Below, one piece after another: positions 29,923-38,584 of a stretch of 41,195 nucleotides of DNA. Location of the stretch: assembly GCA_903857795.1 (NCBI GenBank), contig CAIOGM010000088.1, positions 1 through 41,195 of the forward strand, in the 5' to 3' direction. Under the pieces are notes generated by a model that ran no database searches, was not told the origin of the DNA, and saw only the letters and a list, made by a program, of their open reading frames with translations. The stretch is from an uncultured Geobacter sp. Lineage in GTDB: Bacteria; Desulfobacterota; Desulfuromonadia; Geobacterales; CAIOGM01. The translations under genes were made by a program, and so were the position numbers. Every line of letters begins with the position of its first letter. Position 1 is the first letter of the stretch.

Positions 29923-29979
29923 GAACTATTATCATGAAAAGGATTCGAACGGGCGCAACGGAGCAGACCGGAAAAGTTA

Positions 29980-30008
29980 TTGACGAGCGCGTGAGCCATG
30001 GTTACTCT
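29980..30008 (+). promoter_or_regulatory. Weak candidate promoter of the cytochrome-Cache gene
   Basis: TTGACG (29980-29985), a 17-nt spacer and TACTCT (30003-30008). The -35 is good and the -10 is poor, so an activator or another sigma factor may be needed. The leader to ATG 30075 would be about 60 nt. Confidence 0.35.
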
Positions 30009-30074
30009 GTCAACTCACTTACTAGAGATGACCGGCAGACCAACCCGTGGGCGTCACCACCAAGGAGTTCCCCT

Positions 30075-32039
30075 ATGGCCATTCGGAGTAAAATCGGATC
30101 AGCGTGGAACCTGATCAGCCTTGTCGGCATGATCCTGGCGGTCACCGCCGCCGGTCTCATCGTCGTCTTTACCGCCTTCGAGATGCTCACCGAAGCCGAA
30201 CATGCCTACCTGGGGCTCATGACCTTCTTCCTCTTCCCGGGGATGCTCCTCTTCGGGCTGGCGCTGGTCCCCCTGGGGGCGTGGCTGGAGCGCGACAAAC
30301 GGCGGAAATCGGCCATCGAAGGGATGGTTTCCCTGGAGGAGGAGATCCCGCCGTTTCCGACCCTCAACCTGAACGATTCCCACCAGCGCCGCATGTTCAT
30401 CTTCTTCATCACGGCGACGGTCATCTTCGTGATCATCATGGCCATCGCCTCTATCAAGGGATTTGAATTCACCGAGTCCACCACCTTCTGCGGTGAACTC
30501 TGTCATCCGGTCATGACCCCCGAATATACCGCCTGGCAGTACTCTCCCCACGCCAAGGTCAGGTGCGTGGAGTGCCACGTCGGCGCCGGCGCCGCCTGGT
30601 ACGTCAAGGCCAAGATCTCCGGGATGAAGCAGCTCTATGCGGTCCTGTTCCATACCTATCCGGAGACCATCGAGACCCCCATCGACAACCTCCGGCCGGC
30701 CAGGGAGACCTGCGAACACTGCCACTGGCCCGACAAGTTCTCCGTAGCCCGTCAGAAGATCTTCTACCATTACGCCCTTGATGAAGATAACACCCCGCGC
30801 AAGATCGACATGTTGATCCATATCGGCGGCTCTCCCCTGAAGGCGACCTCCAACGGCATTCACTGGCACATCGGGTCGGAGGTCAGCTTCATTGCCCGCG
30901 ACCAGAAACGGCTCTCCATCCCCTATATCGCCGTCAAGGAGAAGAGCGGCAAGGTCACCGAATTCATGGACACCGAGAAGCCGCTCACCAGGGATGAGCT
31001 CGCCAAGGGGAACCGGCGGCTCATGGACTGCACCGACTGCCACAATCGACCGACCCATATCTACCACTCCCCCAGCGAGGGACTGGACCTGAACTTCGTC
31101 TCGAACCTCATCGACCGGAAGCTCCCCTACATCAAGAAGGTCTCCATGGAGGTGCTGGACCGTCCCTACAAGAGCAAGGAGGAGGGTTTCAGCGCCATCA
31201 GCAAGGATATTCCCGCCTTCTACGCCAGGAACTATCCGAAGATCTCCCGGGAGAAGGGGGCGGCCATCAGCGCCGCCGTGCTGCAGGTGAAGGATATCTA
31301 CGAACGGAACTTCTTCCCCGCCATGAAGGTGAAGTGGAACACGTACCCGAATAACATCGGCCACTTCTATACGCCGGGCTGCTTCCGCTGCCACGACGAC
31401 AAACACCGGTCACCCGAAGGGAAGGTGATCTCCAAGAGCTGCGAACTCTGCCACGAGCTCCTGGGGCAGGTCCAGGAGAACATCCCGCCGGGGGCCGTGG
31501 TCAACCAGTTCGTTCATCCGGTGGAGATCGGCGACGAACTCTTCGAGACCAACTGCAGCGACTGCCACTCCAGCGGAAACCATCAGGTCACCGCCGAAGG
31601 GAAGCAGCCGGAAAAGAGCGCCCCACGCCCCGCCGCCGGCCCCCTCTCCTCCGCATCCCAAAGGAATCAGGAAGCGGCAAGGGCCATGGTGAAGAGCGCC
31701 GTGACCTATCTGAAGGCCAACGGCACGGCAAAAACCCTGGTGGAGATCAGCGACAGCAAGGGGCAGTTCGTCAAAGGAGAGCTCTATCTCTTTGTCATCG
31801 ACCTGCAGGGGCGGATGCTCGCTCACGGGGCGAATCAGACCCTGGCGGGGAAGAGCATGATCGACTTCAGGGATCCTGACGGGAAATATTTCTTCAGGGA
31901 TTTCATCCAGGTCGCCCGGAAGGGGAGCGGCTGGGTCGATTATAAATGGATCAACCCCGTGACCAGGAAGACTGAACCCAAGTCGAGCTACGTGGAGTCG
32001 GCCGGCGACATCATCATCGGCTGCGGCGTCTATCACTGA
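30075..32039 (+). CDS. NapC/NirT-type seven-heme cytochrome c with C-terminal Cache-like domain
   Basis: This 654-residue inner-membrane electron-transfer protein has helices at about 11-35, 46-71 and 108-127. Heme motifs follow: one CX3CH (C139-H144, CGELCH) and six CX2CH at 164, 213, 319, 436, 456 and 494. The block ETCEHCHWPDKFS is typical of NapC/NirT relatives that take electrons from the quinone pool. After an Ala/Pro linker (about 510-525), residues 530-654 look like a single Cache sensor domain: AMVKSAVTYLKANG, YLFVIDLQGRMLAHG, then GSGWVDYKW. ATG 30075 has AAGGAG seven bases upstream. The upstream in-frame ATG at 29934 has no good site. It may report or respond to a periplasmic ligand, which is inference. 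Confidence 0.9.
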   Translation: MAIRSKIGSAWNLISLVGMILAVTAAGLIVVFTAFEMLTEAEHAYLGLMTFFLFPGMLLFGLALVPLGAWLERDKRRKSAIEGMVSLEEEIPPFPTLNLNDSHQRRMFIFFITATVIFVIIMAIASIKGFEFTESTTFCGELCHPVMTPEYTAWQYSPHAKVRCVECHVGAGAAWYVKAKISGMKQLYAVLFHTYPETIETPIDNLRPARETCEHCHWPDKFSVARQKIFYHYALDEDNTPRKIDMLIHIGGSPLKATSNGIHWHIGSEVSFIARDQKRLSIPYIAVKEKSGKVTEFMDTEKPLTRDELAKGNRRLMDCTDCHNRPTHIYHSPSEGLDLNFVSNLIDRKLPYIKKVSMEVLDRPYKSKEEGFSAISKDIPAFYARNYPKISREKGAAISAAVLQVKDIYERNFFPAMKVKWNTYPNNIGHFYTPGCFRCHDDKHRSPEGKVISKSCELCHELLGQVQENIPPGAVVNQFVHPVEIGDELFETNCSDCHSSGNHQVTAEGKQPEKSAPRPAAGPLSSASQRNQEAARAMVKSAVTYLKANGTAKTLVEISDSKGQFVKGELYLFVIDLQGRMLAHGANQTLAGKSMIDFRDPDGKYFFRDFIQVARKGSGWVDYKWINPVTRKTEPKSSYVESAGDIIIGCGVYH

Positions 32040-33673: not shown

Positions 33674-34606
33674 TTACCTGCAGACCTTGTCATACAGAGC
33701 AGCATCGCCTTTATCCCAGATACTCTCGAATCTGTGCCCTGTCTCACTTATTTTACGGGAATTGCTGTTTTTACTCTTGAGTGTTACGGGGTCCAATTCT
33801 ATGAAAGCAAAGGTATCGATGCTCTTGTCGCTGCAATTTACAGCATTGGCAAAAACTGTTACATCATTATTCACGAGCAGCCACGCCGTGTTTATCAATT
33901 TGACACTGCTGCCGGCGCCGCGACCGAAATACCTGTACAATAAAACATTACCCCCCTGTTTGTAATACGCCGACCACCCTTTGGCAATAAAGAGATCGGC
34001 ATTAGCTGCGAGGGATCCCTTTTCAACACTCTGTTTATCGTTTTTGGCAGGGGGTGTGCTAATGGTTTTCGTGATTTGGTGAGGGTCTCTCAACATCGAC
34101 GACATATTTGACAATGCAGCGCCCACAGTGGCAATATCGTTTTTCGATGTGAATCTCTGATAGCTTCTCGATGCAAGTCGCGGCGCCACAGTCTGTTTTT
34201 TCGCAGTGACGAATTTACGAAGATCAATGTCAGCGGCTTTTGGTTTCTGTTTGGCGACGACTGCGACCGGCTTGACAGTTAGTAGGGCTGAAGACGCCAC
34301 AGCGGCAGTCGGTTTGACCGAATGCGACGAAGATGTCGCATTGAATGGCTTAGTGTCAGGATGTCTATTCTCACCCTGGTGATGCGACGTTGCCGAATCA
34401 TAGACAATCTGCTTGGCCGGTTTTTTGATGGGGTTCTTGACGGTTTTCGACTTGGCGGCGGGCAGTAGGAAATAGACGACTATCCCTACCACAATAATGA
34501 GCACCAATGCAATCGCAGCATAAATAATTTTTTTTCTTTTGGTTTTGGCGGGAGAGTCATTCGCCGGCGCCGCGTCCTGCCCTTCGCCTTCATCTGTATT
34601 TTGCAT
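33674..34606 (-). CDS. Single-pass membrane protein with C-terminal extracytoplasmic domain
   Basis: The family is not recognised with confidence. This 310-residue protein has a short acidic cytoplasmic tail, a basic stop (KTKRKK) and one helix at about 27-48. A long Lys/Ala/Val-rich linker (about 50-190) follows. The C-terminal domain (about 205-310) has WSAYYKQGGNVLLYRYF, then TVFANAVNCSDKSIDTFAFIELD, and ends WDKGDAALYDKVC. The paired cysteines and the final Trp-to-Cys pattern recall surface-adhesin-E-like domains, a weak resemblance. AAGGA precedes the ATG. Base composition is visibly lower in GC than its neighbours. It is 59 nt downstream of the FlgO-like lipoprotein genes. Confidence 0.7.
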   Translation of the reverse strand: MQNTDEGEGQDAAPANDSPAKTKRKKIIYAAIALVLIIVVGIVVYFLLPAAKSKTVKNPIKKPAKQIVYDSATSHHQGENRHPDTKPFNATSSSHSVKPTAAVASSALLTVKPVAVVAKQKPKAADIDLRKFVTAKKQTVAPRLASRSYQRFTSKNDIATVGAALSNMSSMLRDPHQITKTISTPPAKNDKQSVEKGSLAANADLFIAKGWSAYYKQGGNVLLYRYFGRGAGSSVKLINTAWLLVNNDVTVFANAVNCSDKSIDTFAFIELDPVTLKSKNSNSRKISETGHRFESIWDKGDAALYDKVCR

Positions 34607-34664
34607 GGAATCGAGTCCTTTTGCTCAGATTGCACGTAGAGCTGCTTGAATATCAGCCTTATTC

Positions 34665-35282
34665 CTACCTTACGCTGTAACTCGTTATGGTGCCATCGAC
34701 ACAGACATAACTAAGCTCCTTCGTGACCATGCGTGAGATTCTGCTTGTCATTGTATTGATTTTCTTGGCAAAAATCAGCAATTTATTCCCTTCGAGATAG
34801 TCATATGTGCCGACTATGGCCTCACCCTGACGATACTCATCGTTTTTGACCTCGCTGGGCACCCGGGTCAACGACACCAGTCCACTATCCGATAATTTAA
34901 AATATTTTGCAAATTCGGCCTGAACTATTGTGTAGCAGCATGCGTTACTGAGGCTCCCCCGCATCAATTCACCCATCAGAAGCCCTATCGGTTTCGGAAC
35001 ATACGTATTGATATCCACAAAATCAGTCACCAGTACCGTCAAACGATGCGCATCGTCAATTCCTGCACACTGAGTAGGACTACTGGCATCACCTCCAGGC
35101 AGTTGACGGCACTCGCCGCAGTTGTCGGTACACATCTCGACTGCAATACTATTAAAAATCTGCTTCAGATCCGCGGTATTAAGTAAGTCGGTGATCGTGC
35201 AGCTGCTGTCAAGTTGCGGTTGATGCGCGCAACCGGTCAGCAACAATATCAACGAGGCGCCTGTCAATAGAAGTTGTTTCAT
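34665..35282 (-). CDS. FlgO-like domain lipoprotein, copy 2
   Basis: This 205-residue lipoprotein has lipobox LLLTGC with acceptor C18. A cysteine-rich stretch follows (C28, C51, C55, C58, C72). The domain at about 80-195 fits the FlgO pattern: LTVLVTDFVDINTYVPKPIGLLMGELMRGSL, a two-cysteine CCYTIV, then LTRVPSE, and GEAIVGTYDYLEGNKLLIFAKKINTMTSRI. FlgO of Vibrio is an outer-membrane lipoprotein of the flagellar base, but no flagellar genes are nearby. The ATG at 35282 overlaps the previous stop as ATGA. Confidence 0.75.
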   Translation of the reverse strand: MKQLLLTGASLILLLTGCAHQPQLDSSCTITDLLNTADLKQIFNSIAVEMCTDNCGECRQLPGGDASSPTQCAGIDDAHRLTVLVTDFVDINTYVPKPIGLLMGELMRGSLSNACCYTIVQAEFAKYFKLSDSGLVSLTRVPSEVKNDEYRQGEAIVGTYDYLEGNKLLIFAKKINTMTSRISRMVTKELSYVCVDGTITSYSVR

Positions 35283-36019
35283 TTTGATATGTCTTCTATC
35301 TTGATCCATTTTGAAGTCTCGAGATCACTACCCGATTGTTTTTGCTTTGCATTGTGCGGCGTATCACCGACTATCTTCATAACCCTTTGCCTGTCTTCGT
35401 AGTAGAGTAAAGAATCAGCATACTCGGTCAATGGCATGTGCACCTGCCCAGATGACACAATAATTCCAGAGCTCATATCTATAACTCTAGTATTTACAAT
35501 TATATGTCCATCTGTAACCGAATATGTTCCTACGACAATTCCACCTATCTTATAATTGTCACGTATTTTTTGTATATCTCTGCTTAATGAAAACTCACCA
35601 GTCCCATTAACTGTAATATCCTTGGTCAACCTGACTTCATATACTTTCCATTTACGCACCTGCAGTTCGTGTATCAAATTCTCGGAAAAAAGCCTGCCGA
35701 AGCTTGACGTCTCCGACAAATTATTAAGGTTGACTATGGTTGTAACTATAAATGTGTTATCCAGGCTTTTTCTGTCAGAATTTCTTTCAATCTGATCCGC
35801 AGTGAAAATAATTTCTGCATTCAACTTTCCAATAGAAGTCCTGCTCCGAGGAATGGTAAGAGGTTCTTCGATCGTAAATTTTTGATAGGGAGTCAGTTGC
35901 GCCGTTTCATAATTTTCTGCACGGATATTGCCTTGCGGATAGCTTGAGGTAGTGGCACATCCTGCAGTGAACAGCAACTGAACTGAGATCAGGAGACCAA
36001 ACGTAGCGCGCCGTATCAT
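35279..36019 (-). CDS. FlgO-like domain lipoprotein, copy 1
   Basis: This 246-residue lipoprotein has lipobox FTAGC with acceptor C21. The mature protein has a 75-residue N-terminal region containing TIPRSRTSIGKLNAEIIF. The FlgO-like domain follows: FIVTTIVNLNNLSETSSFGRLFSENLIHELQ, KVYEVRLTKDITV, GTGEFSLSRDIQKI, and GGIVVGTYSVTDGHIIVNTRVIDMSSGIIVSSG. The last block, a GTY strand followed by N-x-R-V-I-D and a bound tail, is typical of the domain. ATG 36019 overlaps the preceding lipoprotein stop as ATGA, and its own stop overlaps the next ATG. AT-rich codon use sets it apart from flanking genes. Confidence 0.78.
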   Translation of the reverse strand: MIRRATFGLLISVQLLFTAGCATTSSYPQGNIRAENYETAQLTPYQKFTIEEPLTIPRSRTSIGKLNAEIIFTADQIERNSDRKSLDNTFIVTTIVNLNNLSETSSFGRLFSENLIHELQVRKWKVYEVRLTKDITVNGTGEFSLSRDIQKIRDNYKIGGIVVGTYSVTDGHIIVNTRVIDMSSGIIVSSGQVHMPLTEYADSLLYYEDRQRVMKIVGDTPHNAKQKQSGSDLETSKWIKIEDISK

Positions 36020-36273
36020 CTTGCACCCCCACAATCGCCCATGCATGTATTAGTTCCTTCAGGCAGTACAATATATTCAGTCTGTTTAGTTCTGTATGAT
36101 ACAGGATAATCTCTGCAACCATTCCGGCACCAACTATCCCACACGATACTATAAGAATCCCGATAGCATTGACTATCACTTGCACATGGATTTGTAATAA
36201 TTCCGTTGCGACAGTTGGATGCGCACCCCGACAACAAGATTGTTACAGACACCAGACATAACAATTTTCTCAT
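36016..36273 (-). CDS. Small cysteine-rich lipoprotein
   Basis: This 85-residue precursor starts at ATG 36273, seven bases after AAGGAG. The lipobox is LLSGC with acceptor C17. The short mature protein has seven further cysteines (C21, C30, C36, C49, C53, C77, C81), suggesting disulfides or metal binding, in a periplasmic or outer-membrane anchor. The family is not recognised. It is the first gene of the lower-GC operon and overlaps the FlgO-like gene by ATGA. A promoter candidate lies at 36322-36350. Confidence 0.75.
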   Translation of the reverse strand: MRKLLCLVSVTILLSGCASNCRNGIITNPCASDSQCYRDSYSIVWDSWCRNGCRDYPVSYRTKQTEYIVLPEGTNTCMGDCGGAR

Positions 36274-36321: not shown

Positions 36322-36350
36322 TATATATGTATCGGCACAAGGCCTGATAA
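36322..36350 (-). promoter_or_regulatory. Candidate promoter of the lipoprotein operon
   Basis: On the minus strand TTATCA (36345-36350), a 17-nt spacer and TATATA (36322-36327), each with four of six consensus bases. It lies 50 nt before the first ATG (36273). Confidence 0.4.
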
Positions 36351-36431
36351 GTTTAGCGCGCGCACCAATTACGCAACATATTAAACAATACATATATTAC
36401 TAAAAATATTAAATAATTATTTCCAATCAAC

Positions 36432-36466
36432 AAAAAGCTCCTAAACAGTGACGAGTTCAGGAGCTT
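36432..36466 (-). terminator. Rho-independent terminator of the second hemerythrin gene
   Basis: On the minus strand AAGCTCCTGAAC and GTTTAGGAGCTT form the stem, followed by TTTTT, about 70 nt after the stop at 36534. Confidence 0.85.
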
Positions 36467-37120: not shown

Positions 37121-37206
37121 GCCGGAGTGGTGAAATGGTAGACACAGCAGACTCAAAATCTGCCGACCGCAGGGTCATGCCGGTTCGAGTCCGGCCTTCG
37201 GTACCA
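37121..37206 (+). tRNA. tRNA-Leu (anticodon CAA)
   Basis: This 86-nt class II tRNA starts GCCGGAG and ends with an encoded CCA. The anticodon stem is GCAGA/TCTGC around CTCAAAA, giving CAA, which reads UUG. A long variable arm (CCGCAGGGTCATG region) precedes the T arm CCGGTTCGAGTCCGG. The acceptor pairs GCCGGAG with CTTCGGT using two wobbles. Confidence 0.97.
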
Positions 37207-37593: not shown

Positions 37594-37938
37594 TCATACT
37601 CTTACCTTCTCCTCAGCAGCACCTTCCCGCTCATAAAAAACCACCCCAATCCGTTCGATATGCTCCCTCAGCTTCGCATGGTCAAGCTGTTCGAAAATCG
37701 AAAGGTCAAACATCCACGGCAGAAGCAGCTCATCAAGTTCATCAAGAATTTTCAACAGGATGTTGTGATTCAGCTCATTGCCGTACATCGTCAAGTCAAT
37801 ATCCGAGCCGGTTTTGTAATTTCCCTTGGCACGCGAGCCATACAACACAACCAGTTCCACCTCCGGATGAGAAGCAAACACTGCCCGGATCTTTTCTACC
37901 GCAGCCAAAGGCAATCCAAAGAGGGGATCCGTCATCAT
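37594..37938 (-). CDS. MntA-like nucleotidyltransferase (antitoxin-type)
   Basis: This 114-residue minimal nucleotidyltransferase has the motif GSRAKGNYKTGSDIDL (about 34-49), containing GS and the two metal-binding aspartates. ELVVLYGSRAKG gives the usual lead strand. In MNT/HEPN pairs the MNT protein AMPylates and silences the HEPN RNase. The ATG overlaps the upstream HEPN-type gene stop as ATGA. The length and single-domain form are normal. Confidence 0.88.
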   Translation of the reverse strand: MMTDPLFGLPLAAVEKIRAVFASHPEVELVVLYGSRAKGNYKTGSDIDLTMYGNELNHNILLKILDELDELLLPWMFDLSIFEQLDHAKLREHIERIGVVFYEREGAAEEKVRV

Positions 37939-38342
37939 GCTTGCAAACTCAAGGCTTCAAATCGGAGATGTAAACTAACAAATTCAGGGTAATACTGTGT
38001 CACTATTTTGTTGGAGATATCATCAGCAACGTCTTCATTATAGGTGTAGCTGGCAAGAACTCTGCTCTTGATCATTTCCATCCAGGTTTCACCATTTTCA
38101 ATCAGACCACGCCTGAATGCCAGGCGGAAGGCATCACGGCCGCCGATAATTCCGACCTCACCTTGTGCTTCAAAAATGTCTTTGATACAGTTCCAAGCAA
38201 GCTCGTATGTATACTCAAAACATTGTATCAATCCCTGCTGCTCAAACTCGTTAAGCTCGCCTTTTTCAATAAATCTTGTGAGTTGACGGAGAGCTTTGGA
38301 ATAGTTGTCTAACCGTTGTTTCCAGCGAATGTCTTCCGTCAT
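37935..38342 (-). CDS. HI0074/HepT-like HEPN protein, RNase motif altered
   Basis: This 135-residue all-helical protein belongs to the nucleotidyltransferase substrate-binding (HI0074) type, partner of the MntA-like gene. RWKQRLDNYSKALRQL starts the first helix, and GLIQCFEYTYELAWNCIKDIFEAQG is the family hallmark. The expected RX4HXY RNase motif reads R-V-L-A-S-Y-T-Y, with Tyr (TAC) in place of His. Many family members have SHTY here. Loss of the histidine would be expected to weaken or remove RNase activity. ATG 38342 has AAGGAG upstream. A GTG/ATG further up adds seven residues. Confidence 0.88.
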   Translation of the reverse strand: MTEDIRWKQRLDNYSKALRQLTRFIEKGELNEFEQQGLIQCFEYTYELAWNCIKDIFEAQGEVGIIGGRDAFRLAFRRGLIENGETWMEMIKSRVLASYTYNEDVADDISNKIVTQYYPEFVSLHLRFEALSLQA

Positions 38343-38359
38343 ATGCTGAGTCTCCTTGT

Positions 38360-38584
38360 TCAATCAAAGAGAGCCACCGCCTGCCGCGCCAGCTCCGTTC
38401 CAGCCAACAGCTCACTGAGTAGTTCACTGAACTCCTGCGCCGCCAGGTCATGCTGCCGAACCATGGTGGAGAGTTCCCGAGCCAGCTCCAAAGCGGCGCC
38501 GGAGTCAAGATCACAGGTGGCGACCTCCTGTCCGGAAAGAGCTCCTCCCGCTCTGCCATTCAAGCTCTGCGTCATCTGTTTCAC
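38360..38584 (-). CDS. Small hypothetical helical protein
   Basis: A frame of 74 residues, GC-rich like the flanking deacetylase and unlike the toxin pair. It is predicted mostly helical: DSGAALELARELSTMVRQHDLAAQEFSELLSELL. No signal peptide, cysteine pair or known domain is seen. The start is GTG 38584 or ATG 38575, with only AGG upstream. It lies 17 nt before the HEPN gene start and 50 nt after the deacetylase stop on the same strand. It may be a real downstream gene of the deacetylase transcript. Confidence 0.45.
   Translation of the reverse strand: MKQMTQSLNGRAGGALSGQEVATCDLDSGAALELARELSTMVRQHDLAAQEFSELLSELLAGTELARQAVALFD

Follow-up and report, generated by a model that had tools for sequence, protein, structure and literature searches.

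FlgO has been described in two flagellar systems that bear on the operon reported here. In Vibrio, FlgO is an H-ring protein at the outer-membrane edge, and its mutants variously swim less well, have filaments that are fragile, or place some flagella in the periplasm (PMC6504787, PMC7175336). The Vibrio genes flgO, flgP and flgT are sigma-54 class III genes (PMC6504787). For Arcobacter, the cited portions of PMC9321776 describe flgO and a paralogue, flgO', in a shared operon, a motor with concentric outer-membrane rings attributed to FlgO, and the loss of RpoN, FliA and FlgM. G. sulfurreducens encodes FliA, for which control by RpoN is predicted (PMC2725144).

The operon described here lies on a 41-kb contig of an uncultured Geobacterales metagenome-assembled genome (G000), and "the window" refers to this whole stretch. 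It comprises four genes, A to D, all on the minus strand (Table 1). With the Vibrio H-ring system (FlgO with FlgP and FlgT) it has in common the FlgO domain, lipoprotein character and a flagellar link; unlike that system, it carries two FlgO paralogues and a new lipoprotein, A, behind a sigma-28-type promoter. Profile searches for FlgP (LPP20) in eight genomes gave a single match, in G029, and none in the genus's four species, with 14 control genomes also unmatched, while FlgT matched in 0 of the eight genomes and its control likewise matched nowhere. We do not claim the operon as a Vibrio-type H-ring. The Arcobacter arrangement, as given in the cited portions of PMC9321776, is alike in placing flgO before its paralogue in one operon. 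It differs in that FliA has been lost there, whereas a sigma-28 site precedes the operon here, and those portions mention no third lipoprotein like A. We would class the operon, as the best fit, with the Vibrio/Arcobacter FlgO kind in a new form, characterized by a FlgO/FlgO' pair, a sigma-28-type promoter and an extra conserved lipoprotein.

Table 1. Features of the operon and its surroundings, in window coordinates
Feature	Position	Strand	Description
Gene A	36016..36273	-	85 aa, Cys-rich lipoprotein; start at 36273 behind AAGGAG (ribosome-binding site)
Gene B	35279..36019	-	246 aa, FlgO-domain lipoprotein (FlgO)
Gene C	34665..35282	-	205 aa, divergent FlgO-domain lipoprotein (FlgO')
Gene D	33674..34606	-	310 aa, single-pass membrane protein
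Sigma-28 (FliA) type promoter core	36330..36355	-	TAAACTTATCAGGCCTTGTGCCGATA; 56 nt upstream of the gene A ATG
Terminator-like hairpin	36435..36466	-	12 pairs, then TTTGTTGATT; between gene A and the hemerythrin gene upstream; consensus scan
tRNA-Leu	37121..37206
Nucleotidyltransferase gene pair	37594..38363		beyond tRNA-Leu
CxxCH-containing membrane protein gene	29934..32039		701 aa; adjoins MarC

The lipoprotein genes and their conservation

The gene layout given in an earlier note on this DNA was borne out in full. Genes A and B, and genes B and C, overlap by ATGA, D follows C after 58 nt, and genes for PPK2 and MarC, whose identities are backed by Pfam, follow in turn after gaps of 22 nt (D to PPK2) and 36 nt (PPK2 to MarC). 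The lipoboxes of A, B and C read LSGC, TAGC and LTGC, respectively. Among members of the three families with a recognised lipobox, none carries Asp at +2, the pattern expected of outer-membrane lipoproteins. It is also true, within the window, that no flagellar, pilus or secretion genes stand beside the operon. Upstream, the terminator-like hairpin is the predicted end of the hemerythrin transcript and would set the operon apart; such hairpins were not rarer in shuffled sequence, with three found by the consensus scan against 3.1 expected. On the far side, the gene adjoining MarC on the opposite strand encodes a membrane protein that carries several CxxCH haem motifs and looks NapC/NrfH-like by eye.

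By sequence, B belongs clearly to the FlgO-domain proteins and C joins them as a divergent member, in line with the earlier description of two FlgO-like lipoproteins. B matches PF17680 (FlgO) at 8e-37 and 126 bits. C matches at 9.9e-5, its 22.6 bits falling exactly on the curated cut-off of 22.6, and FlgO is matched by every one of the 28 orthologues of C (best 1.6e-11); profile comparison relates the C family to the B family with a probability of 96.8%. Residues 89-198 of B align (2.5e-15) with the solved FlgO-domain proteins 9yfg and 9yds, entries that each hold the FlgO-domain protein in 58 copies. When the alignments of A, C and D were searched as profiles against the PDB, nothing significant emerged.

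Gene A reaches no family at the cut-offs of the libraries searched, and its relatives are present in 27 loci. An alignment of 23 rows shows invariant C17, C30 and C36, one of the three being the cysteine to be lipidated, together with a conserved DYPVSYR motif. Gene D matched no known family. A low-confidence model places a helix at residues 22-47, and the protein also has a linker rich in Lys, Ala and Pro and, at its C terminus, a conserved domain of ~110 residues. The AlphaFold models of A and D have mean pLDDT values of 48.5 and 42.5, respectively, too poor for use. Of the families put forward in the earlier note for profile comparison, FlgO is matched by B and C, FlgP is unmatched in the genus, and surface-adhesin protein E gave no profile match in four D proteins at E values up to 10. 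D is restricted to the window's genus, where it is co-encoded in all four species, with a single weak match elsewhere. It is possible that D connects the inner membrane with the outer one.

Among 147 relatives, B-like genes occur in 56 genomes and C-like genes in 47, and C-like genes are rare outside the order. Comparison of gene calls across 40 fetched loci and the window shows that the A-B-C order is kept in most of the 27 A-bearing loci, mostly with small overlaps. The tandem is found in several genera of the order while the flanking genes vary freely, PPK2 and MarC being unlinked to the operon in the sister species. Because the same order and overlaps recur in several genera amid changing neighbourhoods, A-B-C is a real unit, beyond chance. 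The genes that follow C vary: D in the window's genus only, and elsewhere an outer-membrane barrel (six loci) or a small lipoprotein (three loci). Of the four genes, whose co-occurrence in other genomes the earlier note proposed as a check, A-B-C do recur together, with B-C alone in some lineages, and D keeps to its genus.

Some B-C pairs without A lie beside secretion genes. In five genomes of genus g4 (L101-L105; for example, L101:8967-19000), a gene for a ~2300-aa protein and a ShlB/FhaC-type exporter gene are followed by B-C, an arrangement that suggests a link between the FlgO pair and two-partner secretion. In L096 and L098-L100, B-C pairs adjoin a type I secretion operon (OEP, HlyD, ABC) with TPR and glycosyltransferase genes near, and L096 also encodes a protein with 42 ALTTAQ repeats close to the pair. 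The g4 clade has a long stem in the B-C tree, and its re-use for another purpose is possible.

The sigma-28-type sequence and the association with flagella

A perfect sigma-28 core, TAAA-N15-GCCGATA, precedes gene A and is the sole match at one mismatch or fewer in the 41-kb window. The whole genome holds four perfect cores in 4.05 Mb: one before flgM (PF04316, 4e-14), one before an HD-domain gene that adjoins a gene judged CheD-like by eye, one before A and one without a credible gene. Cores with one mismatch precede a flagellin gene and the flgJ-flgM-flgK-flgL run. Since the pattern at one mismatch or fewer is not clearly enriched genome-wide (57 occurrences versus 45 for the reversed pattern), only the perfect copies and the position are taken as evidence here.

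A sigma-28-type sequence is conserved at a fixed distance before A. A survey of 26 loci, which covered 45-70 nt before A with starts fixed by the lipobox, found three perfect sites, seven with up to one mismatch and nine with up to two, where resampled sequence gave expectations of 0.00, 0.01 and 0.13; these loci include related ones and are not 26 independent tests. The sites with up to two mismatches sit 51-64 nt before A. Measured against the sequence that precedes the other genes of the loci, sites with one mismatch or fewer are over-represented (6/40 vs 9/433, p 0.0007). Sigma-54 sites upstream of A were sought, and none was convincing. The sigma-28 site is absent from most FlgO loci outside the order, as it is from most loci of a second FlgO type discussed below. 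Several lineages lack it before the operon itself, and some of these carry a divergent HTH gene instead. In six such loci (L071, L073, L074, L080, L081 and L089), the HTH regulator gene precedes A-B-C and control seems to have been rewired.

The genome that carries the window also encodes a flagellar cluster on another contig (C122), comprising flagellins, flgL, flgK, flgJ, flgI, flgH, flgA, flgG, flgF, fliA, flhG, flhF, flhA, flhB and fliR to fliL; FlgH, FlgI, FlgM, FliA and flagellin were named by profile and most others by eye. Across the order, the C gene is present in 44/119 FlgH-positive genomes versus 2/28 FlgH-negative ones (p 0.0014, kinship ignored), so that 44 of 46 C-bearing genomes have FlgH and 75 of the 119 FlgH-positive genomes lack the operon. 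Across 395 genomes of the phylum, FlgH is found in 62/64 genomes with a strong FlgO match versus 173/331 others (p 1.6e-13, kinship ignored). Weak FlgO matches show no excess (FlgH in 34/63). One exception to the FlgO-FlgH pairing, G497, has FliG. Another genome, that of the sister species G003 (L066), carries A-B-C-D and the sigma-28 site, with FlgH not found and FliG matched only marginally; perhaps the genome is incomplete, or perhaps the species truly lacks flagella. In G174 and G409, FlgO tandems adjoin flgK/flgL. The earlier view of the set as not tied to a flagellum is not supported, given a flagellar cluster with FliA in the genome, a conserved sigma-28 promoter and strong FlgO matches that track flagella across the phylum.

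The order also contains a second FlgO cluster (L112-L119, L124), which encodes a lipoprotein with the motif STQKKxRxAHHWDVLADD, a FlgO lipoprotein and an outer-membrane barrel, and which often adjoins a gene pair for ~1600-aa and ~400-aa proteins. It resembles A-B-C in pairing a FlgO lipoprotein with another lipoprotein, and resembles six A-B-C loci in having a small outer-membrane barrel downstream. It differs in that its FlgO is only ~30% identical to B and the partner is not recognisable as A or C. In two genomes it is embedded in the flagellar cluster (loci L114 and L117; genomes G059 and G051), with fliL/fliM on one side and hook genes on the other. The idea that the two FlgO types exclude each other in genus g13 was considered and dropped, as numbers are small and G021 and G066 carry both.

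Interpretation of the operon

In what we take, with fair probability, to be the best reading, A-B-C is an accessory of the flagellum at the outer membrane, made late under sigma-28 control. The conserved sigma-28 promoter argues that the unit is probably such an accessory and not an independent envelope machine. In the proposed mechanism, a FliA-dependent promoter would drive A-B-C late, alongside flagellin and the hook-associated genes. FlgO and FlgO' would most likely assemble, by analogy with the Vibrio H-ring, as a ring or disk that encircles the L-ring at the outer membrane's inner face, and the Cys-rich lipoprotein A would be a new third, structural component. In the window's genus, the co-encoded D could tie the inner membrane to this disk. 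Any motility effect of the operon is one that we infer from this model. Several observations count against a flagellar role, among them the retention of operon and promoter in G003, the many flagellated relatives that do without the operon, the lineages lacking a sigma-28 site, the B-C clade beside secretion genes and the unmatched FlgP in the genus.

Some of these observations are also accommodated if the lipoproteins belong to the FliA regulon in a non-structural capacity and act elsewhere in the outer membrane, for example in surface attachment or a swim/attach switch. The sigma-28 core before an HD-domain gene, itself non-structural, fits such a role, as do the lack of the operon in many flagellated relatives and the g4 clade next to a gene for a ShlB-type exporter or to type I secretion genes and the ALTTAQ-repeat protein. 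We nevertheless regard it as rather unlikely: FlgO elsewhere is a motor ring protein, and in four other genomes FlgO tandems or clusters lie within or adjoin flagellar clusters. A lower probability still attaches to the proposal of the earlier note, a flagellum-independent assembly of three lipoproteins and D that reaches from the inner to the outer membrane. The window holds no flagellar gene, G003 retains the operon, and D spans the inner membrane and accompanies the operon throughout its genus, all of which suit that proposal. It is hard to reconcile with the conserved sigma-28 promoter, the co-occurrence with flagella and the near-absence of D outside the genus. What stands of it is that an envelope assembly is the likely product, with the D bridge a genus-specific possibility.

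Base composition raises a different question. The A-B-C unit is, as reported earlier, AT-richer than its flanks (GC 0.434 versus 0.607), and GC3 in the operon is 0.35-0.53 against ~0.80 in PPK2, MarC and a polysaccharide-deacetylase-like gene. These values, the nearby tRNA-Leu and nucleotidyltransferase pair, and a position unlike that in the sister species could indicate that the operon is a passenger of a recently acquired AT-rich island with no settled role. We judge this highly improbable. In the concatenated B-C tree, the genus's four species fall together (support 100), and the sister species share the low operon GC, so that arrival by recent transfer is unlikely (the earlier note had read the composition as a sign of transfer); the proteins are also strongly conserved. 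The operon has moved, since its neighbours differ between the window's species and the sisters. A search for an island bounded by the tRNA and att repeats was negative, with no tRNA-end repeat longer than 12 nt in the window, and a reading of the list of open frames for 30-41 kb (not a profile search) recognised no integrase. The nucleotidyltransferase pair, which lies in the same AT-rich stretch and consists of a nucleotidyltransferase and a nucleotidyltransferase-substrate-binding gene, is possibly a toxin-antitoxin module.

Returning to the flagellar accessory, a more elaborate picture can be offered tentatively and with some doubt. In this picture, the Geobacterales may possess an undescribed outer-membrane flagellar ring composed of FlgO/FlgO' and A under late sigma-28 control, tied by D to the inner membrane in one genus, with a diverged branch of the pair re-used beside secretion systems.

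The analysis assigns a lipoprotein operon that had no annotation to what is likely the flagellar regulon of Geobacterales, and brings with it a conserved lipoprotein family, A, that is new to the libraries searched. The operon offers a direct test of the role of FlgO pairs outside Vibrio and Arcobacter. FlgO genes can be flagellar even at a distance from the flagellar cluster, and neighbourhood taken by itself is therefore a misleading guide.
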